NCBI GenBank assembly: GCA_010094045.1
Contig: ML986700.1
Span: forward strand, 57,107 to 121,106
Length of the DNA: 64,000 nt
Source of the DNA: Lojkania enalia
Taxonomy: Eukaryota; Ascomycota; Dothideomycetes; Pleosporales
Direction: 5' to 3'
Below the pieces are notes generated by a model. The model was not told where the DNA came from and ran no database searches. It saw only the letters and a list, made by a program, of their open reading frames with translations. A program made the translations under genes and the position numbers. Below are positions 16,942-52,799 of the stretch, piece after piece. Each line of letters opens with the position of its first letter. The first letter of the stretch is position 1.

Positions 16942-18160
16942 ACATCCCTCACTGCGTAGCGAGACACACCGTGTGGCGAGACAAATGATGGGTACTTTAA
17001 CTTTCAGCAACTAGAAAGCTAATGCGCACGACGAATATTGCTATAATTCTACGAAAATAATCTGCTGCAGCCAATTCTAAATATCTATATTATACTTTGC
17101 CCGAAAATTACTTTTGTATCGTAGCTTCTGCACCCGATTCGTACAGCACCTTGTTTCGTGGTACAATATGCTTCTCTACCCACGGCGCCAACCTCAAGCC
17201 TTTTTTGTCCGATTTTTGGTAGAATAGCCTTATTCTACCCTTACAACCTCACTCTAATATTAGAAAGTTATTATTAGCTCTATGCGCGCTGCAGGGCGTA
17301 GTTTTATATAGTACCAGCCCGTAGATTGGTACTTCTAGCGGAAGCTAACCACCGATCCGGGCTAATGCGAGATAACTCTATACTACTTATCTTATATACC
17401 GGTATATATTTTATATATAGCTGTATAAGTTGTATAAGCGTTCGGATTATTATTAAATCCGACTTAGGATTGGGAGTAGTAATAAGTCTTAAGCCTAGCG
17501 TTTATTTAGTTAGCTACCGCGCTTCTAGCGTTGAAACCAGCTTTAATATAGCAATCTAGTCCTATATACAGCGATACCTACTTTATAATATAGAACTATA
17601 CTATTATACCGCCCCTAAGTGCCGAGATCCGCTATTATCCCTTCTACTAACCGATGGAACGACTTAATCGAGCCTACTATATTCTTATATATCTTAAGTT
17701 AGTATACTAATTTCTAGACTAAGCCGCAGTAAGTTTAAGTCTCAGCTTATTAAAGGGGAATATAATATAATAGAAAAGATATAAGTTAAGATAAAGTATA
17801 GTATACCTGGAAATTAAAGCCTACGCTTTAGTATATAGATATAACTAAATATTACTAGTAAAACGCTGTTATTATAAGCGTATATAAAGGTGGAAAGGCT
17901 CTATATACTCTAGTAATAGAGCTATTATATAGTTAAACAACTAGCAGCTCCTTATATAAGTTCTATAACCTTTACAGCTATAGAGATATACTTTAGTACA
18001 ACCTCTAACAGTTATAAGGATTTAGATTATTTATATTTATAAGGGATAAGTACTAGTAGAGCTATAGTAGTAGCTATACTTAGTAAGGTTCTATACTATC
18101 TAGAGCTATATACAGCACTCTTCTCTTTAGCTATATCTACAAACTATTACCTTTAGTATA
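16942..18160 (+). repeat. Left inverted-repeat arm (1.2 kb)
   Basis: Matches the reverse complement of 22,555-23,784 along its length, with mainly C/T and G/A differences. The similarity stops near 18,158, where the left side reads ...aagggtgtgtc and the right side diverges. Open frames inside the arm are not shared between the two arms and look spurious. Confidence 0.85.
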
Positions 18161-18588
18161 AGGGTGTGTCTAGAGCGGGTTAACTATACCCTTTACTAGC
18201 ATAATTAAGGCGTTTATTTACCTCTAGCTAGACTATAATAGTAAATAATTAATACGTAATTCTTATACGTAGATATTCTATTACTTAATCTAGAGTATAC
18301 TCGAAGCTTTACTGTAGTAAATTAGCAAGCTATATATATATACTAATCCCCGGCCCTCTATAAAATAGAGAGAATAATAAATAAAGTATAGTAAATAAGA
18401 ACAATATAAATAGTAGAATATTATAGGATTTTAGCACCTTAGGACGCACCAAGCATATTACTCTTAATCCTACATATCTATACCCTTCTATTTCTAGTAC
18501 TAATACCAGTCATTTCCTTAGATACTGTTATATATGAGGGTCGATACTCCAACAGTAGCTACAGAAGGTTCTCTAAATTGTATGTTAT
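18161..18588. other. Spacer between left arm and HNWD gene end
   Basis: AT-rich, RIP-affected DNA without recognisable coding. It probably held the 3' flank of the captured gene. Confidence 0.4.
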
Positions 18589-18599
18589 CTACATGCCAT

Positions 18600-19640
18600 C
18601 TGGACTCAAACCTGGGCCTTGCTTAACTCCATTGTCAGCTGACCCCGACGCCAGCCGCGTTGAGTCGTGGGAGAAGGCCACGGACTTAACCCAACTGCTA
18701 TGGCCCTGGAGCGTCGATAGGCACTCGCCGCTGCTCGCATCCCAGATCTTGACCGTGTTGTCGCCTGACCCCGACGCCAGCCGCGTTNNNNNNNNNNNNN
18801 NNNNNNNNNNNNNNNNNNNNNNNNNNNNNNNNNNNNNNNNNNNNNNNNNNNNNNNNNNNNNNNNNNNNNNNNNNNNNNNNNNNNNNNNNNNNNNNNNNNN
18901 NNNNNNNNNNNNNNNNNNNNNNNNNNNNNNNNNNNNNNNNNNNNNNNNNNNNNNNNNNNNNNNNNNNNNNNNNNNNNNNNNNNNNNNNNNNNNNNNNNNN
19001 NNNNNNNNNNNNNNNNNNNNNNNNNNNNNNNNNNNNNNNNNNNNNNNNNNNNNNNNNNNNNNNNNNNNNNNNNNNNNNNNNNNNNNNNNNNNNNNNNNNN
19101 NNNNNNNNNNNNNNNNNNNNNNNNNNNNNNNNNNNNNNNNNNNNNNNNNNNNNNNNNNNNNNNNNNNNNNNNNNNNNNNNNNNNNNNNNNNNNNNNNNNN
19201 NNNNNNNNNNNNNNNNNNNNNNNNNNNNNNNNNNNNNNNNNNNNNNNNNNNNNNNNNNNNNNNNNNNNNNNNNNNNNNNNNNNNNCCTGACCCCGACGCC
19301 AGCCGCGTTGAGTCGTGGGAGAAGGCCACGGACTCGACCGTCCCGCTATGGCCCTGGAGCGTCGATAGGCACTCGCCGCTGCTCGCATCCCAGATCTTGA
19401 CCGTGTTGTCGCCTGACCCCGACGCCAGCCGCGTTGAGTCGTGAGAGAAGGCCACAGACTCGACCGTCCCGCTATAGCCCTGGAGCGTCGATAGGCACTC
19501 ACCGCTGCTCGCATCCCAGATCTTAACCGTGTTGTCGCCTGACCCCGACGCCAGCCGCGTTGAGTTGTGGGAAAAGGCCACGGATTGGACATAAGAGCTG
19601 TGACCATCGAGCGTCGACAGACAGTTACTCCATCGGTCCT
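18600..19640 (-). repeat. 126-bp tandem WD40 repeat array
   Basis: Units start at 18,638, 18,764, 19,286, 19,412 and 19,538 (+ strand), exactly 126 bp apart on each side of the gap. They encode near-identical blades of the form [20 protein letters not shown] and [13 protein letters not shown]. High identity between blades is typical of HNWD arrays that evolve by repeat exchange and set recognition specificity. Unlike the rest of the gene, this block is GC-rich and has no RIP stops. Confidence 0.9.
18788..19285. other. Assembly gap of 498 N inside the WD40 array
   Basis: The unit phase on the two sides (18,764 and 19,286 differ by 522) is not a multiple of 126. A whole number of repeats would need a gap of 480, 606 and so on, so 498 is only an estimate. 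Confidence 0.95.
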
Positions 19641-22148
19641 GCATTCCCGGCTTAATTACTATACCCCGTAGCTCTTTATCTTTAAATAGCGCTCGTATAA
19701 CACTATAAGTTAGACTAAACAGAAGCGCGCTATATATTTAGAGTAGACTGCTCTCAATTGCTAATTTATAATATATAATAAATCGCCGTGCGTCTCAAAC
19801 CACTTCTATTATTAAGAATATAGCCGCTCTCTCCTATTATAATTAGTAACAACTATCTTACGGAATATAAGCTGGTAGGGAATTACTTTAGTTAAGGTCT
19901 CTAGTCTAGATATTAAGATTATACCCTTTAACGTGCTTATATAAAGGCTAACAGCTTCGAGCTAGTAAAGATACTTCTTTCTTATAAATCCGTCTATAAC
20001 GCCTCTACTTATAAGAATACTTCTATTATATATTAAAGAGTTAGAAATCTATTTATAGAGGTAGTTAATCTAGTAGATATATAAGTACTATAATACTGCT
20101 AGTAGATTAGGCTTAGGCTGTTATATCTACTTAATAGGGTATCTTAGCGTATCTAGCTAATATATATTTTACTAGAGATTTCTAGATATAATCTAGATAG
20201 ATCTAGAAAAGATATTTTAGTAGACCTTCCTAGTCCCGGATGGGAATATACTAACAGCTGCTTTATCTAATAAGAAATCTCTAGCTAACTAGTAAATAAT
20301 ATATATATAATCTTTCTATAATATAAGAAATAAACTATATATATTTACTATTACTACAGTTATTTACTCTATATTAGACCCTTAATTAGGCAAGTCTGCT
20401 AAAATAGAAAGCTTCTATAGATGTAGCAGACGGTATATAGTAATAATAGTAGAGAGAATCTAATAGTATAGTTCTAGGTTCTAGTACTTTAACTGCTTAA
20501 TATACCCTATTATCCGTTTATATACGTCTATTAGCTCTATTAAAACTTCTTTAAGAATCTATACTACCTCCTAGGGCTATACATCTTTAAGCTCTTTTAT
20601 AATTAGAGACACCTAGAGAAATATACTATTTACCTTCTATTATATCTTCTCTTAAACTAATAATTAGAGTAACTGATTATACTGAATCTATTCTAATTCT
20701 ATAAGATAATAGTTAATATAAGTATTAACAGTATGTAAGACTTATATAATATTTTCCTTTAGCTTAAAACTTAGCCTTACTCTAGAACTATTAAGTCGTA
20801 GTTACTACTCGATATTAGTATAGTTACGACTTGTTAGTATCTATTTAATATAAGGTAATAGAGATAACTTCTATATAATAAAAGCTAGCAGCTTCTCTAG
20901 ATCCTTTATATATTCGTTAAGTGTATTAATAAAGAAGTATATATTATCTAAGGTTAAGTTTTATAGGATATCTGTAAAAATCTTATATAAGATAACCCAG
21001 GTATTAGTATCTTTAAAGAGTACTTTATCTATCTAGTTATACTTCTTCCGTAGATACGAGATAAGTACTAGCTACTAGTTAATAAGTATAAATAGGAGAC
21101 CCTATAGTACAGCTGTTATACTATTAATACGCAAGTTAGTAGCCTAATTAAAAAAGTATAAGAGTAGAATTATCTTAGCTATTAACTTATTTAGCTTATT
21201 AATAATACCGTAGAGTAGTATAATCTTACCTTTACTAAAATCGCTTTTAATTTATAGCAGCTAGCTTTACAAGTTATTATATTAATAGAAGAAGCTTAGA
21301 TTTTAAAGAATCTAGTAGTACGACTCCTCGAGTAGCTTACTTTTAGTCTCCTTAATATATACTTTATCCCGTCGGGGATTAGTAATATATAAGTCTCTTA
21401 TATACTCCTCCAACTTCTTAATCTCGTCTTAGAGTCGAGTTAATACTCTTGCTATCCCTTTACTGTAAAAGGGAGATATATAAACTCCAAAAATTTCTAG
21501 TAATAAGTATACCTTATCTTTTTTATACTTAGTCTAGCATTTCTCTATCTATAATAAGCGATTATTAACGCTAAAGTGTGACAGCGGTTTACCTTTAAGT
21601 ACTTACTCTAGAATACTAGTTATTATATATATCTATAATTAAAGGGAAACTTTATTACTAAGTCGCTTATATTACTAGGAAAAGAATTTGACTAAACGAG
21701 GTATAAGAAGCTCTTAAAGTGTCCAGCCTTAAGTAAACTATTTACTTTTTTAAAAGGTAGACTCCTACTTAGAAATATCGCTATTTACCTTCTACTTATC
21801 TATTAAAATATCTAATAGATAGATATAGTACTAAGTAGCGTTATAATACTAGTAAAATATAGAGTTAATAGTATATAACAGCTTAACCTTATTTTCCTTA
21901 TTAATATAATAGGTGTTAATCTAGAAGTAGTTTAAACTATCTTACTTAGCTTACTCTATATAAAACCGAATCTTCTTATATCTAGATTTATCTATACTAG
22001 TACTATTTATTAAGTTATTAAAGGTAATCTTATTAGAGTCCGCTTTCTATATATATAAGAGAATTATATAGCGAGGAATTATATTATTATTTAGTAAAGG
22101 CTCTGTAGGATAGTATCTACTAGTACTACTATATTATAAAAGACGTAT

Positions 22149-22554
22149 CGTCTAGTATTAGGTTAAGTAGAATAAGTAGAAGGAAGAAGGCTTAGTTAAC
22201 CTTAATTATAGCAGCCTAGCTAGTAGCACAAGTATAGCAAATTAATTGCTATTCTTATCTAGCTGAGCTTTTAAGTTAGTAAATATATAGGTGTTATTTA
22301 TAAGTTAATATTTATATAAGAATTATATTAGAGAGTAATAGTATAATACTGCTAATACGTATATTTAGGTTTTTATAAAGAAGCTATATTAGGCTAAGGC
22401 TGTTAAGTTAAGTACTTACACAGCTGGATTATAGTATAATAGAGCTTAATAGTACTAGTACGATAGTAAGAGGCGAAACTACAACCCGTATAAACAATTC
22501 GATCCCGCTAGTAGAGGATAGCCGATATACTCCTATTATACCTTTACGCTGGAG
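22149..22554. other. 5' flank of HNWD gene inside transposon
   Basis: RIP-affected non-coding DNA between the HET start and the right arm, presumably the old promoter. No TATA element can be told apart in the AT-rich background. Confidence 0.4.
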
Positions 22555-23784
22555 GCGATAGTTTATATATATAGCTAAAGAGAAGAGTATTATATATAGC
22601 TCTAGATAGTATAGAATTATACTAAGTATAGCTAAACTAAAACTCTACTAGTACTTATCCCTTATAAATATAAACAATCTAAATCCTTATAACTATTAGA
22701 GGTTATACTAAAGTATATCTCTACAGCCCTAAAAGTTGTAGAACTTATATAAGGAGCCGCTAGTCGTTTAAATATATAACAGCTATATTACTAAAGTATA
22801 TAGAGCCTTTCTACTTTTATATACGCTTATAAAGACAGCAATTTACTAGTAAGACTTAGTTAAACCTACATGCCGAAGTATAGACTTTAATTTCTAGGCC
22901 TACTATACTTTATCTTAGCTTTATCTTAGCTTATATTATTTCTATTACATCGTATTCCCCTTTAATAAGCTAGGACTAGAGGTCGCTGCGGCTTAGTCTA
23001 AGAATCGGTATACTAACTTGAGAAGTATAAGGATATATTAAGCTCGATTAGACCGTTCTATTAGTTAGCGGGAGAGATAATAGTAGATCTCAGCACTCAG
23101 GGGCGGGCGCGATAGTATAATCCTATATTACAACATAGGTATTGCTGTACGTGGGACTAGATCGCTATATTAAAGCTGGTTTTAACGCTAGAAGCGTATT
23201 AGCTAACTAAATAAGCGTCTAGCCTAAGTCTTACTACTACTCCTAATCCCAAGTTAGGATTTAATAATAATCTAATAGCTTATACAGCTAGTACAGCTAC
23301 ATATCTTCTAATAAAATATCTACTAGTATATATAGTAAGCGGTGCAGGATTATCTCGCATTAGCCTAAATCGGTAGTTCGCTTCTGCTAGAAGTACTAAT
23401 TAACGGGGCGGCGCCGCATAAAACTGCGCCCCGTAGCACGTATAGAGCTAATAATAACTTCCTAGTATTAGAGTGTGGTTGTAAGGGTAGGATAAGGCTA
23501 TTCTATAAAGAATCGGAGCAAAAATAGGCTTAAGGTTAGCGCTATAAGTAGGGAAGCATATATACTACAATACAAGGCGCTGTTTAAATCGGGCGCTGAA
23601 GCGATAATATAAACGTAGTTTTCGGGTAAAGTAGAATATAGACATTTAGAATTAGCTGTAGTAGATTATTTTTGTTAAATTATAGCAATATTCGTTATAC
23701 GCATAAGCTTTACAGTTGCTAAATATTAAAGTACCCCTCATTTGTCTTACTACACGGTGTGTCTCGCTACGCAGTAAGAGATCT
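22555..23784 (-). repeat. Right inverted-repeat arm (1.2 kb)
   Basis: Mate of 16,942-18,160. The outer tip in reverse complement reads AGATCTCTTACTGCG and is followed by TA. The inner of the two CGAGACA motifs has become TAAGACA, a RIP-type change. Confidence 0.85.
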
Positions 23785-23921
23785 TAGATGGAAAAATCCA
23801 TAAGCTTTTACTATTAGGATACTAGGAAGGAGTATAGGTAATGCTTTCTCCAAAATCCAATTTTAAGGTGGAGAAATTTGATGTTTAGACATGCCTACTA
23901 TGCGTTAATCAAAATCCTTCG

Positions 23922-26312
23922 CTAATCCTTAACACGCTTATTAGCTCCTTTACAGCCACCTCCACTAATAGTACCTCCATCCGATTCTTGGTTAGACGCC
24001 CCGAAATCGAGCCATTCATAAGTATAGATCTCCCTCTTAGCTTTAGGCCAGTTGTCTACTCTTAACCAGCTGAAGATACTCCGCGTTACTACTTCCGATA
24101 TAATCTCAAATTTAAGCATTAGTTTCGATACTAAATCTAAGGAACCTAGATTAGTTATAGTTGATATAGTACGGCTAGTAGCTGTAGTATTATACCCCTT
24201 ATTATTAGAGCCGATACTATCTATCAAGTCCCAGCTCTACCTAATATATTCGAAGGTATATCCGCAATCCGCGTGTTATTAGACCTCAATCTCTATATCA
24301 CGAAGTTAAGTAGTACTAAAAGGTTGCTAAGAGTATATTAGAATATTACCGTGATCCTTAGCTTCTATTAAAAATAGAATACAGCATTCATCCGAACGAT
24401 GTATCTTATTTTTATTAAGTATTAGGTATAACAGCCTAATACTAATAAATAAGTGGATCATCTCTATCTAAGCTCCAGCGTAGAGGTCTACTAATAGTAT
24501 GCCTAATCGAGCTATCTACAGAATTCTTTTTTTAAGTCTAACAATAGTAGCTTCTAACTATAAAGGAGTAATAGAGGGTTACTGTTTAACTATAATTGCA
24601 GCGAAGGCTCTGTAGTTATATCTATTAATAATAGAGTTAAGAATAGTAAAAATCGGTTCTAGCTAAGAACTAACAATATTATACTCTATCGTTAGATTGA
24701 AAAATGAACCACCAAGGAGGCTGAACATTCCCTGATAGTTACAACTTAGTATTATATAGTAGGGAAGGCGTTTGTATTCTTCTAGAATAAACTTAGATAT
24801 AGAGATAGAGGACGTTATAGGGTCTAATATATTTGATAGAATAGAAGGACCTGGAGTAGAAGTAATGAGAAGATACGGTCGCGGAAGTAGTATATACTCC
24901 TTACTACCGAGGGTTAGAAAATGTAAAACTGTAGCGAGAGCTGCTAGACTTTAGTTAAATATGTTGTAACGGATACAGAAGTCGTATAGATATTAGAAAG
25001 CTTTATCCGAGGATAGTAGAACCAATTAAAATAGTAAAGTGTTGCTTATTACTCTTTAAAGCTTAAACCTCTAGTAATTAGAGATTCGAACTAACTATAG
25101 AGACTGATAAATCTAACCCTTAATCGTACTTATAGTAATCCACCCTTTACTAGAAGCTAGCACCGCAGCCTACTACCTTACCTTATTATTACTAGAATTA
25201 CCTAGATCTACCTCTATATTTTTAAGAGAATCGTTGCTACTATCCCACCAATTCTAATATTATATCTGATAGTAAGGAACCCCTCTATCTACGTTCAAAA
25301 GTACTTGCATTTCTACCTATTTTACTAATAGTATATACGCCCAGGTAAATGCTAGTAATACTAGATAATTGCTTCTAGTCCGATCTTGATTATTAGGCTA
25401 GTCGAGGAATCAGGCGTTATTAGTAAACGTAAATAAGGTCGCTTGCGTGGTTCTAAATATAAGTTTATAATATAGCAACTTTTCTATAAGATCGCAACCA
25501 TCGTTAGATATCCGCTATAGAGATCTACTACTATAATATATTTGCGACCCATTACCGTCGAGATTAAAGCGTATAGTAGTCTTACCTCTACTATACTAGA
25601 GATATAGGAATGCCGGTATCTTGCCTAGAACGTTCCGAAGCTGAAAGTAAGAGATAGAGAGTTCGCTTTCTACATCTACTTCCCGAGTATAAGAAGACTA
25701 GAGACTATAGCTATACTCTAAGGTGCGTTAAATCCTCTCAGAATCTGCTCGAATAGTTTCAGTTATAATTCCTATAAAATTAGCGGCTATATATTTTACA
25801 ATATATTACGTCGCCTTACCTCTTATATAGGGTGTAAACTAATGTGGACGAGGCTTAGTACAGGCTAACAGATTTATTCTAATCCCGCTCCGTTCTCTTA
25901 TATTATTATAAAAGTATTGCTAATACTTAAAAGGTAATAAATTATCTATACCACCCCAATCGCGCACGGATTAAGCAACCTAACTAGGATGTATTTTTAA
26001 CAGGGATATTTTGAGCTATAAAACCAGCTTCTCCTTAAACTAGATGATAAAATTCTAATATGTCGATTCCTATATTATATAGGTGGTCGGGACACTTTTA
26101 GTATATAATATACGTCTAACCCTTCACCCCGTTATAACCGCCCGCTTAACAAATTTTCTATTCCTTCTTATAGCCGGGTACCATGCATTTATAGAAGTTG
26201 TGTTTATTATTGGCGTGTTAGCAGATATTACAAGTATTTTTTCGTCCTGAACTTGCAGACATATTCGTGATACTAGTCTTACTATTAGTAGAAGCCGACT
26301 GAACGTATACAT
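23922..26312 (-). pseudogene. Unknown ~796-codon protein, single frame broken only by RIP-type stops
   Basis: One minus-strand frame runs from ATG at 26,312 (MYTFSRLLLIV...) to about 23,922 (...GANKRVKD), with coherent protein-like sequence throughout and no indel. All interruptions are TAG, TAA or a single TGA, each reachable from Gln, Arg or Trp by one C-to-T or G-to-A change. Visible segments include RDWGGIDNLLPFKY, LSISYFQLRNVLGKIPAFLY, YLYDFCIRYNI, LHFLTLGSKEYILLPRPYL and a Gly/Ser-rich end. The N-terminus has a hydrophobic stretch (LLLIVRL) that might be a signal anchor. I do not recognise the family. It lies next to the HNWD transposon. Confidence 0.65.
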
Positions 26313-26720
26313 ATAGGATATATACTAGATAGCGCCGAAGCTCTTTTAATATATAAGAAGCTTAGTTTGGTATATTATAGCAATTTTATATTAGGATTAA
26401 GTCTCCCTTTTAAACATGAAGGCATAAGTAAAGGTGCTAAGTCCTACCGCCCCAGATGTCCTGTCGCGTGTATATCTATAGCGGGAAGCTGAAATTTGCA
26501 TGCATTTACGAGCAACGGAAGATGTTAACTGCTTAATAAAGATATCTGCGGGCTAGTCGTTCTAAGTTTTATATATAAGCCGCTTTGGCCTCCTCCTAAT
26601 AGCACGGTCGCGCTAAAGTTTCCTATGCTATAGAGTCTCGTAGGAAGCTAAGAATTCGGTATTGTTTCTATCCTCTAGGCTTTTTTTAACCAAAGAATTG
26701 GGTGTTTCTTATTTATTTAG
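26313..26720. other. Intergenic region between two divergent pseudogenes
   Basis: Mixed composition, no gene seen. It lies head to head between the minus-strand gene ending its 5' side at 26,312 and the plus-strand trace from 26,721, so it may have held two promoters. Confidence 0.4.
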
Positions 26721-27470
26721 ATGGCAAATTCATAGATGGGATTAAATAACAGGGCTAAGGCTGCTAAGCTGAACTTGCTAGATACTGTTCCTCTAGAAAG
26801 TACTGCTACCTATTCCTTGAAAGGCTGGACGGACGCTAAAACTGCTGGAGTTTCAGGCGCTGGATAACCGTGCTATGAGGTTAACCAGTAAGAAGTTGCC
26901 ACGAGCCGAGGATAGCCGGTATACCTCTGTACTTCCCGTCGGCAAACTCCTATAGTTAATTCCCGTCAATTCCCCGCTGACTTTCCTCTCGCCTCATTAA
27001 CTCTCCTCCTTAACTCTCCTCATTAACTCTCCCCTCGCCAACTTCCCCCAAACAAGAGACTATAACAGATCCTCCACAGATTATAGAACAGAATCGCGAA
27101 GCCTTTAAGTTATTTGTACAATAACTTACATCGCCGTAGACGCTTATTAAAATGCTGAGGGGGCTTTATAAACAATTCAACGCAGCGTAAAAAGCGGGAG
27201 TAGGAGATACAGCACGAATTTTCGCAGATGTTGGTTTCCAGGCTTAGATAGCATATTTCCTTGCGAAAAAGGAGAGTAAAGGCGGCTAATACTACCAGGG
27301 CCAGCGGGCCGACTAAAGAAAAATATCTGCTTTCGAGCAGCAATCCGCTGAAGACCGAAAGGCGGTAGCTATTAAGCTAGGAAATACTAATGCTTATAAT
27401 ACAGTTTAATCCGAGATTAGACGGTTATTAAGTCACTATCGTCGTAAGTTATAGGCTATTCATAGTATGT
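26721..27470 (+). pseudogene. Unknown plus-strand gene remnant
   Basis: From ATG 26,721 a trace reads MANS, stop, then GLNNRAKAAKLNLLDTV and YSLKGWTDAKTAGV. After a CT-rich stretch (26,990-27,050) a second frame runs from 27,062 with IIEQNREAFKLFVQ, AGVGDTARIFADVGFQA, IAYFLAKKESKGG and FEQQSAEDRKAVAIKLGN, interrupted only by TAA/TAG at likely Gln positions. The helical, charged second part is clearly protein-like. No family recognised; an intron or indel separates the two frames. Confidence 0.45.
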
Positions 27471-27548
27471 TCAGCCTAACAATATTCGTCAGATCTCGAC
27501 AGTACTGAGCTATCCGCCTCTACGTCTCCAAGCACGATACTTCTGACC

Positions 27549-27944: not shown

Positions 27945-28501
27945 CAGCAGACTATCTCTAACTGGCTTGGGGCATAGGCAAGCCATAGAATAGATGCATA
28001 TCCGATACGAATAGAAGAAGTTAGGTAAGAAGTCTTTACTACGAGTTGCGTGACCTTGCGAGTCACAAGCAGCTGCAATAATAATAGGTATCTAAATATA
28101 AGGATGAGAATCAACAAGGTATACGATACATATTATATACTATTTAGGTAGAAGAACTTTGGAGAACCTGCAATCTTTCTTCCTCTTTCACCAACCCACT
28201 CTCGCCTATGAATATAAGTGTCTCGCCCTTCTCTAGTTTCCCTTACCCTTCCGCCCTGCTCACTTCTTTGACTAATACTAGACTACCACCATAACCAGGT
28301 TTATAGACTGAAACCTTGCAATTCCGCTAGTATACCATTGTACCGCTGCCCGGTATAAGATGGGGGGTTTTTGAAGCATTTTCGAAGTCGATCTTTTTGT
28401 TAAGATCCTTGTCCTGGAATCCCTATAGAAAAGTTAGACAGGTATTTACTATAGATTAAGTGGCATACTATGTGAGGTTGGATAAGATACTAAAGCTACT
28501 A
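27945..28501. other. Intergenic region left of the Copia element
   Basis: No gene seen. It ends in TAAGA (28,502-28,506), the left target-site copy of the Copia insertion. Confidence 0.5.
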
Positions 28502-28506
28502 TAAGA

Positions 28507-33400: not shown

Positions 33401-33439
33401 TAATTAATCTAATTTACTACAGGCCGGAAGTACGGTTAA

Positions 33440-39600: not shown

Positions 39601-42400
39601 CTATTAGATACTTACTATATATTATAGGCCTGCAATTTATACCGCTGATAGAAAGTAAAGTATAATAGATAGTAACTATACTTTTACTACCGAGAGCAGG
39701 CTGTAGAATATAAGTATAAGAAGAGTACTATCCTTTTAAAGTAAGGTATAAGACTTTCTTTAGCTATATATCTAGTTAACTAACTAAGCTTTTAGTTACA
39801 GATAAAAAAATTAGACGAAATCTTACTAGTCTAAAAACTATAAGGTATAGGTATAGTTGAAAAGCTATAAGATATTACTATAAGGTTGTAGAGAATTAAA
39901 TCTATATTATATATTAAGGATATTTCTAATAATTTAAATACTCTAGATACTACTATTCTAGACGCTAGTAATATATCTCTAGACTTAAATAATAAATTTT
40001 AGACTTTTAGTAATATAGAAGTTCTAGATTTATATTATTTTAACTCTAGTACTAAATATACTAGTAGTAATAAAGGGGAATATTCCCGGGATATAGAGTA
40101 ATTAGAATACTTTTAGGTAGGGGTATAATAGGGTAATTTTAAGTATTTTAAGCTAATATATTTACTATTATATATTAAACTTGCGGCTAAAGGTAAAGAC
40201 CCTATAGGGTTATATTCTACGTCAGCCTTTACCTTAATCTCTTATAGTAGTAATTTAAGTGGTAAGAATAAAAAATATTTCTAATTAATAAAGATATAAA
40301 GGTAGTAATATAGCCTAGGTTCGAATATAGTTAGGCAGCCTGCTTAATCCATCTTTTAGCTATTAAATTACAACCTTATATCGTTGGCTTATATATAGAT
40401 GTATAGCACTTGCTACTACTATATTTTACTATTTCCACTCCTCCGGCAGACTTACTATACCTCTTATAAGGGGACTTAAATAGAAAATTAAACGGTTTTA
40501 TTTTAAGACTAATTGCGGCTTTATAAATTTACTAATTACTACTTTCTCCCTCTAGGCTGTATTGCGTTATATTAGCTTATTTAAGAATTGAGCTTTTAGA
40601 ATCCCCTCTAATCAGTATCTACTAACTCTTCTAAAACTACTCTTCGCTTAACTCTACCGCAATTATAGATCTAACTCCCTAACGCGCTTAAGATAATATT
40701 TTTCTTATTACTTAATACTAAATCTAAAATAATAATATTATATCTATTATCTAAATACTCTTAGAATTATATAATAAACTACTAAGAGTCTAAGAGAAAG
40801 ATTATAAATATAAATATAGGTCCTATTATATATATAATTAATCTAATAAAGAAAATAGTTATTATATAGTTTAATAGAGAGGAGAAATAATATAAATATA
40901 CTATATTAGAGTTAGTCTATATATTTATTACTAGACTTTACTTAGGGAGTATTATAGTATATATATATTTTCTCTAGGAAAAGTAGCTATAAATAATCGA
41001 CTTAGGTGGGCTATATATATAGTATTCTTCTACTATATTTACTTTAGATAGCTCCTTAGAATAAAATTAGTAAAGTATAAGAATCTATATCTAAACTCCT
41101 TTTATATATACCTAAATATAGGGTATATTTAAGTAGTATATTAAAAATTATAGATGTAAATAGCTGTAGTAAAATATTTAAACCCTTTCTAAATTTTTCT
41201 ACTAGTACCTTATTAAGTATATTATAACTCCCTCTATATTTAAGTCGAGACGGATAATAATATAGTAAATAGAAGTAAAGTAAGTAGACCTACTATTACC
41301 TTTTTATATATTCTTATAATAAAGCTCTTAGACGCTAGAAGAATTAGAAGTCCTCCTTATTAGGGTTTATAATAAGTGCAACCGGAAACCTATATATAAA
41401 TAGAGTAGGTAAGAGTATAAATAGTATTTAAAGAAAATTCTTAAGATTATTTTACTATAGGCCTATAAAGCTGTATATATATATTATAAGAAGAATCCCT
41501 AATCAGCTTATAGTAAAAAAGATATAAAACAGATCCTCTTAAATCCCTAGCTAGGTAATAAGGGTTATTATTATAGTATATTAAGCGAGATATTTAAGCT
41601 AGATAGAAAACCTATAAGAGAGAGTATTTATAATATAGCTATATTTTATTACGCTAAAAAAAGTACTATTAAGTAGTATACTACTATAGGATTAGATAAC
41701 TAGCAATTAATAGCCTAGCTTCTCTTCTAACCTAAAAAAATTATATCCTAAAAAGCTTCTTAAATTATTAGTATTAAAGATAATATATAAATAATAATTT
41801 TATTAAAAAGAATAATAAAGTATATATTTAAAAATATTAGATAATATCCTAACAACTCTCCTTTACAGTATATATTTAGAGCTAGACTGATAAAGCAGCT
41901 TAAACTATTATTATTAAAAACTAGTCTAGCTTCTACTTATTAAAAAATAAGAGGATAGTTTACTTAAATAGTAATACTAAAATTCTTATTTAAAAGTATA
42001 AAGTATAAACTATCTAGGAATATTCTATTAATATTATAGGCGGTATATAGAGGATATAGGTAGAGGTAAAAGCGGTATAAGAGGTAGTATATAGTTTACT
42101 ACAGTAATAGTAGTATTAATATAGATGCTCTATAAGCTATAATAGTAGTTAATATCTAGTATTTAGGAGTACTACGCGTAACTTACCCTCTATTACTATA
42201 GTAGATACTAGTATTTACGCTAGAACTAAGCGGTATCCTAAGAATTAGGGTACTAGTAATAGAAGGGTAATAAAGCGAGCGCGTAGCTTATAGTAGGAAT
42301 AAATCTAACTTTAAAAAGTAGGTATAGAGGAGTACTTTTTAGCCTATCTATTTTTAGTCGCCTACAATTCTTAAGTTCCTTAAAGTCTTATTAGATAGTA
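33621..42400. other. RIP-degraded region, origin not resolved
   Basis: Very AT-rich DNA with few CpA/TpG. The plus strand holds long protein-like stretches broken only by TAA/TAG, most plausibly around 36,600-42,300 (for example LEELEVLLIRVYNKCNRK and KTSLASTYQKIREQF near 41,330-41,950). TGA is rare in all frames of such DNA, so this alone is weak evidence. No catalytic motif, LTR or terminal repeat was recognised. It could be one or more dead transposons or large accessory genes. Confidence 0.4.
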
Positions 42401-42769
42401 CTCTAGGAGAAGCTTATAAGATAAAGTACTTATAATTTATCTAGTTATAGGGGGTATTCGGCAACCTAGAGAGGGATGTTAAAGGGGGGAAGGAATATAT
42501 CCCGTCTACTCTTAATATAGGTTCTAATATATTACTACTATTATATACTATTTACATAAAATAGGTATATACTATTAATTAAGAATGCTGTTAATATAGA
42601 ATTTCTTACTATTTATATTTATAGGCTATTTTAGAATAAATTGGTTAATTTAGCTAAAAGTACGTAAAGCTATATAATCCGTCCCGCGATAGTATTAATA
42701 CCTTTAAGTCCTCCCTAAAAGGCTTTTTGTATAGTTAACCTATATAATAAACTAATACTCCTATTAGTT

Positions 42770-45290
42770 TTATAAAATATTTTTATACTCCTTAACATCT
42801 ACTATATTATCTTTATTTTCGGAGTTTACGAGGGTTAATTTACCTACTTTATTAGAACTGGGATTAGCGAAGAGCTATAGATATTAGTCTCTATTATTTT
42901 CTAATAATAGTTGGTTTATATTAGAATATAATCCGTTTTACTTATAATACTTAAAATACGCCTTTATCCTTTTATATCTTTTTAACTATATAGCCTCCTA
43001 ATTTTCTCTATACTTCTATCTAACTAATTACTAAAATTCTATTCTTATAAGCTATTCTTCGTTTAGATACTTTTTATAGTTAGCTAGTAGGTTTCTTTAA
43101 ATATCTACATAATAAACTACGCGTATATAAAGATCCTAATAGTATAGCTTACCCTTCTTTATTAACTTAGTACTAGGAGCTTGTAGAAGCTTAATGTAAG
43201 GCCCAATTACTTTTATTATTGTTTTCCTAGTCTTTTTAGCGGCTTGCTTCTATACTATAAGATTAAAGTATATATAATGCTACTCTATATTATAAAGCGT
43301 TTCCGCTCCTCCTAGTTTGAGATTAGAGCCTCTAATAACTTAGTAGTACGGTCTCTCTTTTATACTAGTATTAAGAATAAACTAACTATATTAAGCGTTA
43401 TCTATTCTATATAGACAAGTAGTAATCAGGTTACTATATTTAGTTCTTCTATTATCGTATAGCAGGATTTCTATACTATTATCTAGCACCTACTTAAGGC
43501 TATTAGTTAGACCTATATCTAACGTAGCTGCTAGTAGAATAATATCTACTTGTAAAGGTAGGAGTTTAGAGCCTTTTTAGAGACTTATATCTAATATAGC
43601 TACTAACAGTAGAAGTAGAAGTACAGAGCTTTTTTAGAGACCTATATCTAATATAGCTACTAGTAGTAAGAGTAGGAGTATAGAACTTTTTTAGAGACTA
43701 ATATTTAATATAGCTATTAGTAGTAGAGGTGGGAGTTTAGAGATTTTTTAGAGACCTAACAGTTTCTACAATTCTAGCGTTACGTCTATTCCCGAAAGAA
43801 TAAGTTATATAAGTAATTCGTATTTTATCTTTAAAAAAGTAGCTTTAAGTTTTCTTAGAATATCTACTAATACTTCTTCTAGATAACCAGTTATCTTATA
43901 GACAACTAATTGTTTTATCTTTTTAATAGGAATCTTCTAGTCTAAGAAATTTATATCTAGATTCTTATTTAAATTAGTTAGCTTATCTTATTTCTATATT
44001 ATTAGGTTAAGCTTATCCTACAACTAGTTCTCTATTACTAGCAATTGTTTAGTAGATGTCTGGGACGTATTTATACTAATAAGTTCTATTAAAGATAGTA
44101 TAACTTTATCCTAAATTTTTCTTTACTTAATAGTTGGATTATTTATAAAATCTATAAATTCTTAGTACTCTTATTTTAAGGTCTTAAATTTATTAACTAA
44201 CTCGTTAAATTTAGATAGAATATATTCTAGAATATACCTCTTTAGCTTTAGGTACTTACTCTCTAAAGAATAACTAAAGGTTAATAAACCGTAAATTAAC
44301 TTATTTATAGCTTCCTATTAACGTTTATTCTATTTTTTATTATAGTTTCCCCTAGCTATTATTTTCTAGATCTTTTATAGTTGTTAGCTAAGCGCTATAA
44401 TCTATTCCCAGATTATTACCTTAGGAAATAGATCTTAATTAGGGTGTCTAAATATTCTAGGGGGCAACTTCTAAATAAAATTATTGTTCTAATATACCCT
44501 TTTTTACATTTTTAACATACTTCTTATTATAGGCGATGTTATTCCTAGAAGGTAGATTCTTCTATACTTTAGTAAGTTCAGCCGGCTACTTCTTCTTAAA
44601 CTAAGCGGTTATAGCTTTTATTATCTCTAGTTTAATTACTTTTTAGTTATAATTAGAATTATACTTCTAGATCTTCTTGTTAGCTCTTATAAGTACTGAT
44701 TTATATAAGGTTAAAATATCGCCTCTCTACTATATTTTTATAAGTAGATAAAGCTGAGAATACTCTTTTAAGATTAGAGGCGGAAGGGATCTAAACTGTC
44801 CTTTATCTTAAGAGGCGACTAGATTATATTTCCTCTTATCCTCTTCGTTGGCTATATCTATGTCCTCCTTTTCTAAGGCTTCCTTTTTTTCTTTCTCTAT
44901 CTTTTACAGGTCTTATAACGCTTAGATAGCAGATAGATCGCTAGCTTTTACCTTTTTTTCTATCTCTTTCTGTTCTTCTCTTTTCCCCTTACTAGCTTCT
45001 ATTACTTTTAACCTTACCTGCTTTATAAATTCCTTAGAGAGTTCTAGCTCAGGATTATCCTCCCCTTCTAATTTAAGGCTGTTAATATTATCTATAATAG
45101 GATTATATAAAGCTTTCTTTCTCCTTTTAGCTTCCTCTTTAGCTATTTCTATAATTATCTTAAACTTTTTTAGATTCGTATCCTATTAATTACTCTTCTT
45201 TTAATAGGAACTCCTATCTTCTAGAAGTTTATTAAACGGCTCTCTATAAACTTATTATAAATTATTAGCTAAGGTTACTATTATATTAGA
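42770..45290 (-). pseudogene. Unknown coiled-coil protein gene, RIP-degraded
   Basis: The minus strand from about 45,290 gives a coherent charged sequence: NKLLEDRSSY, KKFKIIIEIAKEEAKRRKKA, LKLEGEDNPELELSKE, ASKGKREEQKEIEKKVKAS, EKEDIDIANEEDKRKYNLVA. It is followed by lower-quality sequence, the 57-bp repeat block, and an end near 42,770 reading LTLVNSENKDNIVDVKEYKN. The first part (45,161-44,760) stays in one frame; the end is in another, so an intron or indel lies between. Lys/Glu-rich heptad-like stretches suggest a coiled coil. Family unknown. Confidence 0.5.
43565..43765 (-). repeat. 57-bp tandem repeat, about four copies
   Basis: The shared string tttttagaga starts at 43,574, 43,631, 43,688 and 43,745, exactly 57 bp apart, and a more diverged unit precedes them. 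As 57 is 19 codons, the repeat keeps frame in either direction; minus-strand units read SLKKL, stop or Cys, TPTSTTSSYIRYR. Confidence 0.8.
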
Positions 45291-45299
45291 GTCTAAGAT

Positions 45300-48190
45300 T
45301 AAGGGGGTATTAAAGACTAAAGTTAATAGTAGATCTAAGGTAGAGTCTAATAGTATATTAAAGATAGAGGTAGGAGTAGATCCTCTATACCCTAGAAGGG
45401 TAGTATAAGTAGAAGGGTTTTTAGTAATAGATATATTAGGGAACTATAAAATAGTAGTTAGAATTATTATAGTAGTAGAATTGTTTAATATTAAAGCTTA
45501 TTTAAAGATCGAAGGGTAATTTACTCTAAAGGTAAATAAGATCTAAAAGACTATTTATAAGTTATACTAGTTTCCTATTATAGTAAGTCTAGAAAATAGT
45601 AATACGGTTATAGGCGTATAATTAGTTAACTTAGTCTCTAATAGCGTATTTTCTAATTTTAGATTAATATATAGAGTAGAGAACTATATTATACTTCTTA
45701 TTTTAATGCTACTAAATATAGGTTTTAGAATTAGGCAGTTTTATACATCTTATAGTAAATATAAGAATTTTAGGGTAGAGAGCTCCTACTAATAACTTAA
45801 CTATAAAAACCCTAGCTCTTATTATTATTATTTTAGTAGTATTATATACCTTTAAGTAAATAATAAATAGTAATATAAATTATATAAATTCCTCTATTCT
45901 AATATTAAAATTAGGTAGAATAGTAACTTAGCCTATTTATTTATCTACAAATCTACTATAGAATCTAAATACTATAGAAATTTAGCCTATTCGTTCTTCT
46001 ATAACTCTAGTACAAGTATTAAGTACTACAGCTATATAATCTATATATCAGCCTATAAAAACTGTAACCGTTAGAGCTGGAGGGTAGCTAATATTCTCTC
46101 CCTCTAGTATTATAGCTAAAATTAGCACGGTTATCTCGTTTAATTTTCTAGGACTAAATTACATACTATCTAAGAGTAAATTCTAGGATCTATATTATAG
46201 TATTATAGGATTCGATATAGGTTTTAATTAGTTTAACCTAGAAAATATTAGTAGTAAATTCGTTGTTAATTATAAAGTTTAATCTACTAATCTAATATAG
46301 TTTTTCTATACACAAAATATTACCAAGTTATATTACTAGTAAAGAATAGTATTTAATATAAACTCTTACGGCGCGTATAAACAATTTATTAAGAATACTT
46401 TATTAGCTGTAAATAAGAACTCTTCTCTTAAAACATCTCCTTTATATTAAGTTCCGAGGTTTAGGCTTGTAAATAGTACGTCCCAAATTACACAAATTTT
46501 ATCTATACCTCTTTCTATAGCTTTATTCTACTAGTATCCTTCTATACTATTAACATCTATTTTTCCTCTAATCCTAATCGCGAATAATAGTAATATAAGA
46601 AAAGTTAATACTATAGGTCTAGCGCTTAAGCTTCTAGTTTTATAAATTAGTTAAGTAAATAGATTATTTAAATTTATTACTAATAATTTCTAATATACTT
46701 TACAAGTTAAAAATATCTATAAATAACTACTAGCTAAGTATTTTACCTTATATACCTCTTTTACCCGTATTTTTATTTGGTTAGGTAGAAACTAGGTTAA
46801 TATTTATTTAGAATACTATATTAGGAATAGAACTAGTTTCTAATAATAAAACAACTGAAATATATTACTATATAGCTTAATTCGGGTACCTAAAAAAGTT
46901 TACAAGTAGATATTAAAGTACTAGTAGAGTTGGTTGTATTTTCTCTATATTCTATAGTTATAGAAGTATCTTTACTTTCTATAAGAAGTTCCTTATAATT
47001 CCTACTTCCACCCGAGATAACTATAAGATCTATTAAAGTAGCTTAACCTCCCAAGTATTCTCTAACCTAGATTAGTATATAAGTAAACTCGTATATAAGA
47101 GACTTACTATTAAAGAGCTATAGTTCTATTAAGCACGCTTCTAGGTATATAAAGCCTAGCTATAGGATCTTTAGTATAGTTTCCTGGTAACGCAATTGCT
47201 GATAGAAGTAGAAAAGTAAGATCCTAGAAGCTTAATATTACAGAATAGGTAGTATTCCTGAAATTTAACAGCCTAATATCTATTAGAACTACTATAGATC
47301 GATAAGATAGCTTATTACTAATATCTTAGCTCCTGCCCAGCTTTAATCTAAGCGACTGGCGCTGTAAGAATAGAGAAGATAAGGTTAAAAGGGATAATTT
47401 GGCAAGAAGAAAACCTAAAGAGGAGTAGAAGAAGCTTTATAGTAATAGCAAAAACTAAAATATTATTTAGTTGTAGGAGTAGTAATATAAGAATAAAATC
47501 TTTTATTATTTATAGATCTTTATAAATTAGGTGTTTAAACGATACCCTAGATATAATATAGATAAGACCTGTTAACTAAATCCTGATGCACCATTCCTAA
47601 AATAAAGATCTACTATTTCCTAAAATTAGAACTCAGGTTTTAGTATCCTATATTTATAAGTACTATAAAATATAAGGCTACAGCGTATCGGTATAAGGTA
47701 ACTATACTGATTATATACCCAAGTTTTCCCAACTATAAACGAATATCTGACCTCTTCATCTGTTTTTCTATACCCGACAAGCCTATTATTAGTAAAATCT
47801 TAGACGACTATAACGAGGCGGATAATCTACAAATTTAAGCTGCCGGAATCGTTTTATTCTAATAAGTAGGATAACTTAAACGCCTTATATCGCGTCACCG
47901 CGTCCAAATTAAACGCTTAAGCCGAAATAAGCTTAGTATAATTTTATTTCTACCTCTACTACTATACCCTCCTCTAAATATAAATTTATACAAATATAAG
48001 CGAAAGCCGTATATATAGATATTAGAAACAGTCGTAGAAGAATCTATAGAAGAGGTATTCAATTTGGCTAGAAAAATAAATACTGGAAATGGAATCTCAA
48101 CAGAACCTGACCTGGTTATTCTTTATAAATATCTACCCCGCTAAAAGAGGCATGCTATATATGTAGCTAGTAACTATCGGCAGACAATTT
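45300..48190. other. RIP-degraded region without recognisable gene
   Basis: AT-rich, CpA-depleted DNA. Open stretches exist on the plus strand but no domain or repeat boundary was recognised. Composition changes sharply near 48,195. Confidence 0.4.
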
Positions 48191-48279
48191 ATAATTTTGG
48201 GGTTTAGAGCGAATTTAATTAATTTCGATATTTTGAATATACTCTACTATAGACTGAGTATAATTGCCGATTTTGATGG

Positions 48280-49047
48280 CTATATATGCGTGACAAGAAC
48301 TACTCCGTCCCTTAAAGCGTCTCGAAGTAGCTGTAAAGCAGCTAGTAGGTTGCATAGAGGATTAAGGAATCGTTTTCCATATAACACCCGTACGCAAACT
48401 TCTTCGTCTTTAATTATTAAGCACGGAACGTCAAGACTAGGAAGGTCTCTGACAATAGTTGCATCTGGTGCTATGTGTCCGAGAATTTTTCTCATTGAAG
48501 TCCGATCGACGGGTAGGAAAGGAGACACAACATCCTCGGGGCGCGATACGTAGACGCAAACGCGCACGTCGTGACGGGAGCTAAAGATCTGGTTCTATCC
48601 GGCTAAAACGGGCTTGCAATATCGTAGTTGTTTTACAAGTATAGTGCTCGTATCGATCAGTCCCGGTTCCCTAAATTCATCATGTCTCAACGTCGGTACA
48701 GCGATAGCTGAGTTGGGATCTATAGTAATGATAGCGAAGACGTTCAGGATATTGCCTTTTCCAAAAATGCGCAGATATTAGCAGGGATCCTTAAGCCTTT
48801 TTTCTAAGATACTAATATCGGAGCCAAAAATTCGAATGCGAAATCCTGACGCCTTCTATCTTTCTAACTTTGATCGATCTTCAAAAATATCGTCCAGAAT
48901 ATTCAGATATGTCTTCTGCTCCCACTTGGATAATTGACAATGCAATACTGTTGTAAGCTTAGCAATGTTAAAGGGTTGTAGTAGGGCTAGAAGCGTGCGC
49001 CTAAATGGTTCAACATGTACAAAAATAGCTCGAATTAACAATGACAT
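48280..49047 (-). pseudogene. Hypothetical fungal protein, three RIP-type stops in one frame
   Basis: From ATG 49,047 one frame of 256 codons runs to 48,280 with only three stops (TAG at 48,856, TAA near 48,803, TAG near 48,597), each one C-to-T from CAG or CAA. The protein starts MSLLIRAIFVHVEPFRRTLL and contains LSKWEQKTYLNILDDIFED, IFGKGNILNVFAIITIDPNS and VYVSRPEDVVSPFLPVDR. No transmembrane or catalytic signature is clear. The frame may continue past the TAG at its end. It lies between RIP-degraded DNA and the short-armed transposon, and has much less RIP than the left flank. Family not recognised. Confidence 0.6.
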
Positions 49048-49277
49048 TGTTTACATGAATAATTGACTAGGGAATGTAGTTGAGGAGGAATTTATTAGAC
49101 AATAATGCGAAATTTATATATAAATCTTGTTGTTACAGGACTCATACACCGTGATGACCGTTCACCGTTTCCCGTTTCCTGTAAGGAGAATTCGAATACT
49201 AGCACCACAGTGCGCTAATGTCAACATAAGGTTAATAGAAGAAGTTTTAGCTACAATAGTGTTATCTAAATACATTA

Positions 49278-49409
49278 ACATCCCTCCCTGGGTTACCGGA
49301 CACCTCCTGTGACCGGACAAACCATCGGTACTTTGACTTTCAGCAACTGGAAAACCCATGCGCACGACGAATATTGCTATAATTCTATAAAATTAGTTTG
49401 TTATAGCTA
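49278..49409 (+). repeat. Left terminal inverted repeat (about 132 bp)
   Basis: Aligned to the reverse complement of 52,668-52,799 with few differences. It contains the stop codon of the ankyrin gene at 49,393-49,395. Confidence 0.88.
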
Positions 49410-51680
49410 AGGCGCCCGCATCGAGTAGCATCTTTACTAACTGCTCGTGGCCTTTAACTGAAGCCGAGAAGAGTGCGTTGCCGTATAATCCACCCTGCGC
49501 GTTAACGTCGGCGCCCTTGTCGACTAGCAGCCTCACCATCTGCTCGTGGCCTCTAACTGAAGCTGCCTGGAGCGCATTGCCGTACTCTCCACCCTGCGCG
49601 TTGACGTCGGCGCCCTTGTCGACTAGCAGCCTCACCATCTGCTCGTGGCCTCCAACTGAAGCCGCATAGAGTGCGTTTTCGTCTGAAGAGCTTTCATCTG
49701 GAGAGCTTGCGCCAGATCCTCCGGACAAGGCTATAAAGTCAACCTCATCAATCTATAACGTTCAAGTTAGTAAGTTGTGTGAGATATTGCTAGCCAGCCT
49801 TTACCATAGGGCTGACACTTGAAGCTTGCAGGTGCTCTTACATTTTCCGTAAATTCTGACCCACAATCTGGGCACGTTAAGCCGTGCTCATCGCGATACC
49901 ACTCGTTATTGCACTCGTGGCAATACATCACCTCCCGCCGGCCGGAGTTTTGCGTCCTTGACGTCGCGACGTCAGCGCCCTTTTCCACCAGCAGCTCCAC
50001 GACCCGCTCCTGACCTCTGTATGAAGCCTCCTGGAGCGCGTTGACGTCGGCTTCATCTGTGCTGTCATGGTTAGACCGCGCAAGCTTGAATGTGTCTTCC
50101 ACCAATCCCTGGAAATGAAAAGTCCCTCCGGCGACCTCGAGTCCCTTATCTACAGCACTCTCGAAATTTACCTTGAAGGGACTAGGTGTATTGTTCCCAT
50201 TTTCACCGGGTGTGTGAAATGCGCGTGTTTGCTTTGCTTCTGTAAAGATCTTTGGGGCCTTGACGCGCCTGGCTTCCGATACCACACGTATTCGCTTGAA
50301 TCGAGAGTAGTCACCGTCTTCCCCGTCCACTTCTTCTAATTTTCGTTTTAGTGGCTTCGGTCCAAATTGTACGCGCCCAAATGATGGCTCTCCAAAATGG
50401 ACTTCTGTATTCCGAGCCGTAAGGTGCGGAAGGTCCACTTCGTGGATTTCTGTGATACGACGAAACCACATATTGCAAGTGGGACTATAGGCGCAGGAAT
50501 TAATTAGCCCGTTTGAATTCGGAATAGAGGCCTTCCTTACCATAAAACATCAACATTTGTCGGCAGTTCCGATAGAGTGTTGCATCTCGGACAATGTGCC
50601 GAGGTTCGCGTCGATTGCTCCGTAGAATCACGTTTGAAGACGAGACTCATTGTAATCTTCTGACCGGGCAAGAAAGCGTCCTCAAAGTTGAGCGACAAGT
50701 CGACTTCCCTTCCCGTAGCACTTTCTTGCAGAACATACTCCTTTCGGCATATTTTTCTTAGCCCTTGCTTTCCTTCAAACCGTATCTCCATCACTGCTTG
50801 AAATGCCGTCCAGGAATTGATGAAGCGCAGATGAACGGGAGCTATGCGTCCAATCGCATCTTCAAGGATGAATGGGTCTTCGAAAAGAGGACGGTCCACA
50901 TGTTTCGAAAAGGCTGAACGTAGGGCTACGACTTCGCGATAGATTGCGATATTGCCGGCAATGACGTTAGACATGAAACGTTTCAGCTCTGACCCAAGGT
51001 TCTGTATCCATTCGAGACGGTCCATCATCCGCGAAGCTAGACTGTTTCCTGTCGAAATCAGCTGCCTGTTATTGTCTAATCTTATCCGAACTTCTTTCAA
51101 TGCCTGCGTATGTATATCGAGGGCTGCGTGCATTCTTCGTCCGTCTTCGGCAAGCTGGTCTTTCAAGTCGTCGTTCTTGGTACTGAGAAGCTTCCTGCTA
51201 ACTGTTAGCAGGTACTGTGAATATACCAGAAATATCTTACACCATCCCAGTACCAAGGAGCATGTTGATTGAATCTGAATAACCCGTCACCTCAGCCCGA
51301 AATTTTGCGATTTCCGCGTCCTTCTGTGACGCCTGCCATTGTATCTTTCTTGCAGTATCTTTGAGTATATTCCCCGACCCGCCCACTGCAAGGCTTCCAC
51401 TATATTTTCTGACACGAGCTGTGAACTTAGCGACGGAATCGCGGCATTTTGCAGCTGTCTGCTTCGCTGTCTCGTACAAAGCGTGGAGTTCCGGAGTGGT
51501 AGCGCGGGATCGCGAGAGCTGTTCAACTTGAAGTAGGGCGGTGTCAAGGATGTACAGTTCTCGGGCCACTGCTTGGTACTCTGCTGAAGAGCCTCGACTG
51601 TCGTTCAGCGCTATGAGAAGGCGTTTGACGAGAAGGCTGACTGAGATGATGTCGCCCACTGAGCCGAACGTTACGGGCAT
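49393..51680 (-). CDS. ULD-like / zinc-ribbon / ankyrin-repeat protein (fungal STAND-like), four exons, intact
   Basis: Exons join(51,241-51,680; 50,541-51,194; 49,805-50,484; 49,393-49,730), minus strand, give 2,112 nt and 703 residues. Introns of 46, 56 and 74 nt are GT-AG with TGCTAAC, GCTAATT and CTTACTAAC branch sites, and phases agree. Order: an N-terminal helical domain beginning MPVTFGSVGDIISV (about 1-147); coiled-coil DLKDQLAEDGRRMHAAL; a ubiquitin-like ULD-type domain with KEYVLQESATGREVDLSLNF; a zinc ribbon CPRC...CPTC completed across intron 2; a linker; one ankyrin unit; a second zinc ribbon YCHECNNEWYRDEHGLTCPD resembling the N-terminus of fungal RING-finger proteins; then ankyrin repeats (HEQMVRLLVDKGADVNAQGG). 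Such proteins resemble fungal NLR-like recognition proteins; ligand unknown. The start was chosen because upstream residues of the frame look non-coding. Confidence 0.83.
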
Positions 51681-52467
51681 GTTGTGAGCCTCCCTGATGG
51701 ACCCAGAGGAAACTGCAAGACAGGGGAACACACTAAAGACGTAAAAGGAGTATACAGACTCCCTTCATGTAGAAAATGTGAGAAAATGATTCCGGCACAC
51801 CAGGCTGAGAATGTACGGATTGCACAGGCTGCAGCGCCACGCAAGGCTGATTCAGCAGCGCAGCAGCGTATTAGACTTCAAGCTTGGTATCATGCCAATC
51901 ACTGTCGTCCGCCGCCATACCCGCAAATGTCGGACGCGCACCCAATTTGTGCTAGGCATCCGGCCGCCGCTCAGTATGTGTCTCGGTCATCATGTGCCCG
52001 GGAAGCACATTCGGTTTGAGCGGGTTTGTACGGTCGGCGAAGGGATCAACGGCGGTCTGCAGGGCTTGAGGGCGACGTGATAGATGTTGTCGAAGCCACC
52101 GAAGTAAATGCAGTCGGCTGTCGTATCACATCACGATGTTGTACGACGGCTGTGTTGGAAGCTGATTGGGGTTTCGCGGTTTCGATGGCGGACGCAGTCG
52201 TTGTCTTTGAACAAGCGCCGGGGCCCCCGGAACCTCGGCCGTGCTCCTAATCCGGGGCCGGATTTTAGATGTCCCGCAATGCTTGGCTGCGGCGCTGCAC
52301 AGCCACGGGTCTGACAGCCGCCACAGATACATTACGCACTAACGATGAGGTCAGACGTGTAAGGTCCTTCTGCACTAGCCAGGATCGGTACTCGCTTCCG
52401 CGGGAGGTACCGATCGGCATTGCGGCCCTGCATGAATTTGCCCGCGATAGCGCGCACAAGGCTGGAG
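51681..52467. other. GC-rich 5' region of the ankyrin gene, unexplained
   Basis: About 790 bp of GC-rich, non-RIPped DNA lies between the gene start and the right transposon end. It presumably holds the promoter. Several overlapping open frames exist on both strands; one (51,770-52,020, plus) is somewhat protein-like (AENVRIAQAAAPRKADSAAQ), but none shows a family motif. It may be a captured gene fragment. Confidence 0.4.
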
Positions 52468-52667
52468 ATGACTTGCAGGCATTAGAGTAAGGTTTTCGGG
52501 CTAGCAAAAAGCCGTTTTACAAAAATCCGGAGCGAAAAAGACGTGGTGTTGGTGCTGTAGGGTGGGAAGTCTGTTATACTACGATAGAAGGCGCTTCACA
52601 AATCAGGCTCGGAGGCGACAATGCAAACGTAATTTTTAGGGAAGGGTGGATTATAGGCATTTAGCAT

Positions 52668-52799
52668 TAGTTATAGTAGACTAATTTTACGGAATTATAG
52701 CAATATTCGTTGTGCGCATGGGTTTTCTAGTTACTGAAAGTCAAAGTACCGATGGTTTGTCCGGTCACATGGGGTGTCCGGCAACCCCGGGACGGATGT
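52668..52799 (-). repeat. Right terminal inverted repeat (about 132 bp)
   Basis: Mate of 49,278-49,409. Inwards of 52,668 the sequence to about 52,465 still resembles 23,450-23,650 of the long-armed element. Confidence 0.88.

Follow-up and report, generated by a model that had tools for sequence, protein, structure and literature searches.

The window, that is the whole stretch of 64,000 nucleotides analysed, comes from the wood-dwelling fungus Lojkania enalia (Pleosporales). It holds two elements bounded by inverted terminal repeats (TIRs): element A, with the relic of a HET-NACHT-WD40 gene, and element B, with a gene for ULD_2, zinc ribbon and ankyrin domains (Table 1). A sequence-only reading had described two elements with related inverted ends and a TA outside both, each holding a single recognition-type gene, and this description stands. 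The arms of element A, of about 1.25 kb each, align at 81% identity and the 138-bp arms of element B at 89%, while the right end of B matches an end of A at 69% over 432 bp. As that reading had also stated, no transposase was seen in element A or element B.

Table 1. Features of elements A and B and related sequences (window positions; mariner copies are placed on extracted stretches)
Feature	Position	Strand	Evidence or remark
TA target duplication, left of element A	16940..16941	.	sequence; TA at both ends
Left TIR of element A, ~1.2 kb	16942..18165	+	81% to 22540-23786 reversed
WD40 tract of the A gene, open, GC-rich	18589..19644	-	498 N at 18788-19285
HET-NACHT gene relic, RIP-degraded	19881..22151	-	homology and TpA/ApT
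Right TIR of element A	22540..23784	-	arm alignment
TA target duplication, right of element A	23785..23786	.	sequence
Degenerate third terminus, no partner detected	42415..42481	-	27.3 bits, E 1.4e-7
TA target duplication, left of element B	49276..49277	.	sequence
Left TIR of element B	49278..49413	+	89% to 52664-52801 reversed
B gene exon 4: ankyrins; the stop codon lies within the TIR	49393..49730	-	splice reading; Ank_2 E 1.8e-22
B gene exon 3: zinc ribbon plus an ankyrin-like stretch	49805..50484	-	domain match, splice reading
B gene exon 2: ULD_2 domain	50541..51214	-	E 2.2e-12, splice reading
B gene exon 1: N-terminal helical domain	51243..51680	-	SesA E 0.13, not significant
Terminal plus subterminal sequence at the right end of element B, ~430 bp throughout the family	52372..52799	-
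TA target duplication, right of element B	52800..52801	.	sequence
DDE_3 mariner copies	L060 1073-2295; L061 1032-2295; L046 891-2681; L062 from 1293		extracted stretches

The HET-NACHT gene of element A is recognisable by homology alone, its relic matching the intact C88 protein at 39% over 784 positions. The RIP signature (TpA/ApT) reaches 1.64 over the whole element and 1.68 over HET-NACHT. The WD40 tract carries no such signature and has a GC content of 0.61–0.63, against 0.27 in the neighbouring DNA; its run of N may be an assembly gap or withheld sequence. The WD40 tract of another family member, C88a (about 4600-5350 of extracted stretch L042), is likewise open, with a GC content of about 0.5, within a RIP-ruined copy. 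Thus in A and C88a the WD40 tracts are GC-rich and open while the rest of the copy is ruined, a pattern described for Podospora NWD pseudogenes (PMC1805685). RIP-ruined copies may serve as donors of WD40 repeats.

The gene of element B is intact, with 709 codons in four exons according to our splice reading, and its stop codon falls inside the left TIR. The zinc ribbon match (E 2.1e-5) lies under the cut-off of that model. The 72 relatives retrieved are mainly fungal ULD_2 proteins, four of them also carrying PF17111, and the weaker tail has ankyrin matches alone.

The window also contains two copies (5311-5571 and 12225-12480) of a dispersed repeat of about 260 bp, found again in extracted stretches L049 (about 4742-5011) and L036 (633-902). 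One copy of this repeat sits within the right TIR of element C48.

The terminus family in the genome

The genome searched comprises 58.1 Mb in 400 contigs, the window belonging to contig 123. Three terminus probes gave 38, 41 and 42 matches, and a 27-place TIR pattern with up to three mismatches was found at 39 places, compared to none for the reversed-pattern control. From the three probes and the pattern, 66 termini on 41 contigs were tabulated, with weaker matches left off; the number is a lower bound. The termini are thus not limited to the window, as the family proposed by the earlier reading would have it. In the alignment of 38 termini (of 49 candidates, after filtering) the mean column identity is 82% and 37 of the 38 begin with TA; most copies start with A[CG][AG]T[CG]C. 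Facing termini no more than 15 kb apart form 14 pairs spanning 3.1–13.2 kb, and 13 of these pairs were read as two-ended elements (C104 was left out). Among 12 elements TA flanks all the left ends and 11 of the right ends, the right side of C198 having none. Ends, flanking TA and dispersed copies are therefore directly observed.

At C53:146402-175675, facing ends stand 29 kb apart around a NACHT match, a HET match and a DDE_1 reading frame that is open over 605 aa.

Cargo of the elements and its bias

Among the 13 two-ended elements, seven carry NACHT (A, C212, C88a, C43, C55, C155 and C35), one carries HET (C150), three hold weaker immune-type genes (B, C198 and C48) and two (C276 and C2) have no immune domain match and a cargo that looks membrane-like by eye. 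Clear NACHT or HET cargo is therefore present in eight of 13, four of these eight being of one lineage, and three of the 13 immune assignments were made from domain matches under cut-off or from a database name. In C198 both SesA (E 8.8e-5) and HhH-GPD (E 1e-4) are under cut-off, and the cargo of C48 has the UniRef name ‘fungal N-terminal-domain protein’ with no significant Pfam match. The SesA-like N-terminal and HhH-GPD DNA-glycosylase matches of C198 lie in tandem on the same strand between the ends (L045 1944-3378) and possibly form a single protein.

NACHT was also found in the one-ended copies on contig 88 at 45385 and at 136863 and in C51, C195, C122 and C142, and HET in C15 and C20. 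The HET-NACHT and WD40 ORFs at 45385 of contig 88 are intact. Intact cargo ORFs measure 783 and 615 aa in C88 and 1027 aa in C35, where HET, NACHT and TPR share one frame, and in C88 and C155 a NACHT ORF is followed by a WD40 ORF. The cargoes of C88, C35 and C155 thus have the composition of fungal NLRs, NACHT/NB with C-terminal repeats. In a one-ended copy on contig 51 (L054 2667-8745), two genes lie just inside, to the left of a minus-strand terminus: one encodes a CHAT-TPR protein (1061 aa, E 2.9e-36), the other a protein with a caspase domain (732 aa, E 4.1e-15); no partner end was found within the 10 kb read.

In C155, a gene with a HeLo-like PF17111 match (E 1.1e-4; 22.1 bits against a cut-off of 27.2) is divergent from the NACHT and WD40 ORFs. 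At its start, the NACHT frame is similar to the C-terminal portion of the HeLo-like protein, one of 5000 shuffles scoring as high for this pair picked by eye. If the pair is true, a complete cell-death module moves as a unit.

We counted domain matches within 6 kb inside and outside of the 66 termini. The 49 NACHT matches gave nine inside and none outside, where 0.33 per side are expected. For NPHP3_N, a second NACHT model, 11 were inside and one outside (96 matches, 0.65 expected per side). HET showed six inside and two outside out of 150 (1.02 expected), compared to none and one for the p450 control out of 105 (0.72 expected); at a distance of 8 kb one p450 match falls inside. The HET and p450 counts are bounds, since 150 of 270 and 92 of 220 candidates, respectively, were scored. 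Poisson values for NPHP3_N (around 1e-10) overstate the case because independence is assumed, and three of the 11 inside matches are copies of a single lineage (C212, C43 and C88a), which are not independent as they share flanks. The cargo is biased toward fungal immune-type genes, namely HET-NACHT-WD40, HET-NACHT-TPR, HET, SesA/HeLo-like and ULD-ankyrin.

One could object that this is an ordinary gene-capturing non-autonomous transposon taking any gene, with an NLR and HET excess due to their abundance and a repeat-rich location. Such genes are indeed numerous (270 HET candidates, 49–96 NACHT matches), and no immune gene can be recognised in C276 or C2. Regional richness alone is nevertheless insufficient, since the two NACHT models match nine and 11 times inside the ends against none and one outside, and the p450 matches at 6 kb do not fall inside. 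We consider this explanation unlikely, although it is the strongest of the alternatives.

Elements A, C212, C88a and C43 form one lineage, their cargo DNA being 81–89% identical. A FastTree built on the NACHT region groups this lineage with contig 36 and C51 with contig 106 (support 1.0 for both), C55 with P0002 (0.98) and C88 with P0001 (0.999; 89% identity). On contigs 36 and 106 no terminus was detected. In this tree the cargo NLRs are polyphyletic, which agrees with several captures, or with ends having been lost from some copies, but not with a single capture in which no ends were lost.

Transposase candidates and unoccupied sites

No transposase or recombinase match was obtained among 108 ORFs (at least 85 aa) of ten elements, nor any tyrosine recombinase of the Starship captain type. 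These are 108 of the 115 ORFs listed, seven of C35 (over the NLR and TPR repeats) being omitted, and the list excludes the WD40 stretches of C155 and C55 as well as A, C88a and C43. The scan counts against intact genes alone, because the known broken DDE_3 gene of C35 was missed. The family thus appears to be non-autonomous.

The DDE_3 matches raise a second alternative, a composite made of an autonomous Tc1/mariner element and a captured NLR, whose own transposase decayed in place. Three of the 16 DDE_3 matches are inside termini and none outside, and in C35 the HET-NACHT-TPR gene has a broken DDE_3 transposase next to it. However, DDE_3 belongs to an independent mariner, about 1.2 kb long and bounded by 32-bp ends of its own, which stands alone on contigs 167 and 316 and lies at different distances from the family ends in C35 and C16; the DDE_3 match of C72 is under cut-off. 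The composite is accordingly very improbable. As a family transposase DDE_3 was rejected, being a nested mariner in C35 (both of its own ends) and in C16 (one end seen). DDE_1 has 1137 candidates in the genome, and its overlaps with termini carry little weight because 150 of these were scored. The DDE_1 stretch at C13 lies between its own 72-bp inverted repeats and was rejected as well, as was, as a driver, a 3.5-kb repeat common to C155, C88 and C51 (88–91%) that looks LINE-like by eye. The abundance of DDE_1 makes a helper transposase plausible.

To look for sites without an insertion, the two flanks of each of 12 elements were joined and searched against the same genome, 40 of 910 candidates being scored; C88a was omitted, its flanks repeating those of C212. 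The joined flanks of C155, the 13.2-kb element with an NLR and the HeLo-like gene, match contig 172 at 293 of 300 positions (150 of 150 on the right side) and contig 105 at 278 of 313, and those of C276 match contig 172 at 210 of 230. Each unoccupied site has a single TA at the junction. Two insertions, C155 and C276, thus occurred at sites that still exist unoccupied, and at least some family members really moved. For C2, the 11 places found are weak because identity is 75–77% and the two that were read have CA, not TA, at the junction. The other nine joined flanks gave no junction-spanning match among the 40 of 910 candidates scored. Single-flank matches link C276 with contig 293, C43 with contig 84, and C212, C43 and C88 with one another.

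That neighbourhoods of immune genes were copied by segmental duplication instead of transposition is the least credible explanation. The flanks of C212 and C88a do match on both sides, and C43 has one flank in common with C212 (87–90%), but the flanks of the other two-ended elements are unrelated and the empty sites of C155 and C276 show exact junctions.

Proposed movement in trans and relation to known systems

Taken together, these results make it probable that the elements belong to a family of class II (DNA) transposons of about 3–13 kb, TA-targeted, TIR-bounded and non-autonomous, which repeatedly captured and moved immune genes. The TA duplication and the TIRs point to a DDE transposase with TA specificity, from the IS630-Tc1-mariner/pogo group, which would be encoded elsewhere and move the elements in trans through a cut-and-paste mechanism. 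Immune genes would have entered between the ends on several separate occasions, new or relocated recognition genes might have been retained by selection, and RIP may later have destroyed some copies.

The sequence-only reading had suggested that such a family spreads or shuffles immune genes. Its suggestion gains from the dispersed termini, the NACHT and HET cargo and the clean, paralogous unoccupied sites of C155 and C276 in the same genome, and the family may also explain the patchy distribution of fungal NLRs. A small TA-target family that moves complete receptors, in one case perhaps together with the effector, represents a concrete mechanism for the shuffling of immune genes in fungi. With the terminus probe and the empty sites, this idea is directly testable across strains and species. 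A more speculative possibility, to which we give little credence, is that the immune gene is the element's own weapon in a mobile self-recognition drive with a transposase borrowed in trans. Fusion would then harm partners without the matching allele and so enforce retention and spread of the element; C155 would add a putative death effector.

Transposons of the IS630-Tc1-mariner/pogo group duplicate a TA target and have inverted ends. The present family shares the TA duplication (37 of 38 termini, and the single TA in the empty sites of C155 and C276) and the inverted terminal repeats, and differs from that group and its non-autonomous derivatives in that no transposase was found among the ORFs scanned and complete immune genes lie between the ends. 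Pack-MULE-type elements are non-autonomous TIR elements with captured host genes, but their target duplications are longer and they mostly carry gene fragments, unlike the TA target and several full-length ORFs seen here.

The Podospora HNWD/NWD genes likewise have the HET-NACHT-WD40 architecture, as well as RIP-ruined copies whose WD repeats are functional; in the available part of PMC1805685 these are not described between transposon ends, one pseudogene being said to come after a transposon relic. The putative C155 pair would resemble the NWD2/HET-S type pairs known in fungi, in which an NLR adjoins a HeLo-type gene with a short motif in common (PMC5485727).

Lojkania enalia is not mentioned in the literature searched, and the terms for transposition and Starship are absent from PMC12881547 and PMC10197012. 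The sequence-only reading knew of no described family of this behaviour. This holds for a small TIR-bounded, TA-target family carrying NLRs, which was not found in the literature searched, but not for the carriage of NLRs by transposons, already in print for Starships (PMC9815663 and PMC12134995), a Gaeumannomyces Starship having one putative SesA-NACHT-WD NLR aboard (PMC12134995). Like Starships of Pezizomycotina, the elements described here are mobile, occur in a fungus and carry accessory genes. Starships are of giant size, reaching about 700 kbp, and are classified by their tyrosine recombinase, in contrast to the 3–13 kb, TIR-bounded, TA-target elements of this family, whose 14 facing pairs fall well short of giant size. 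The family is therefore a variant of gene-carrying DNA transposons, and NLR carriage as such was already known from Starships.
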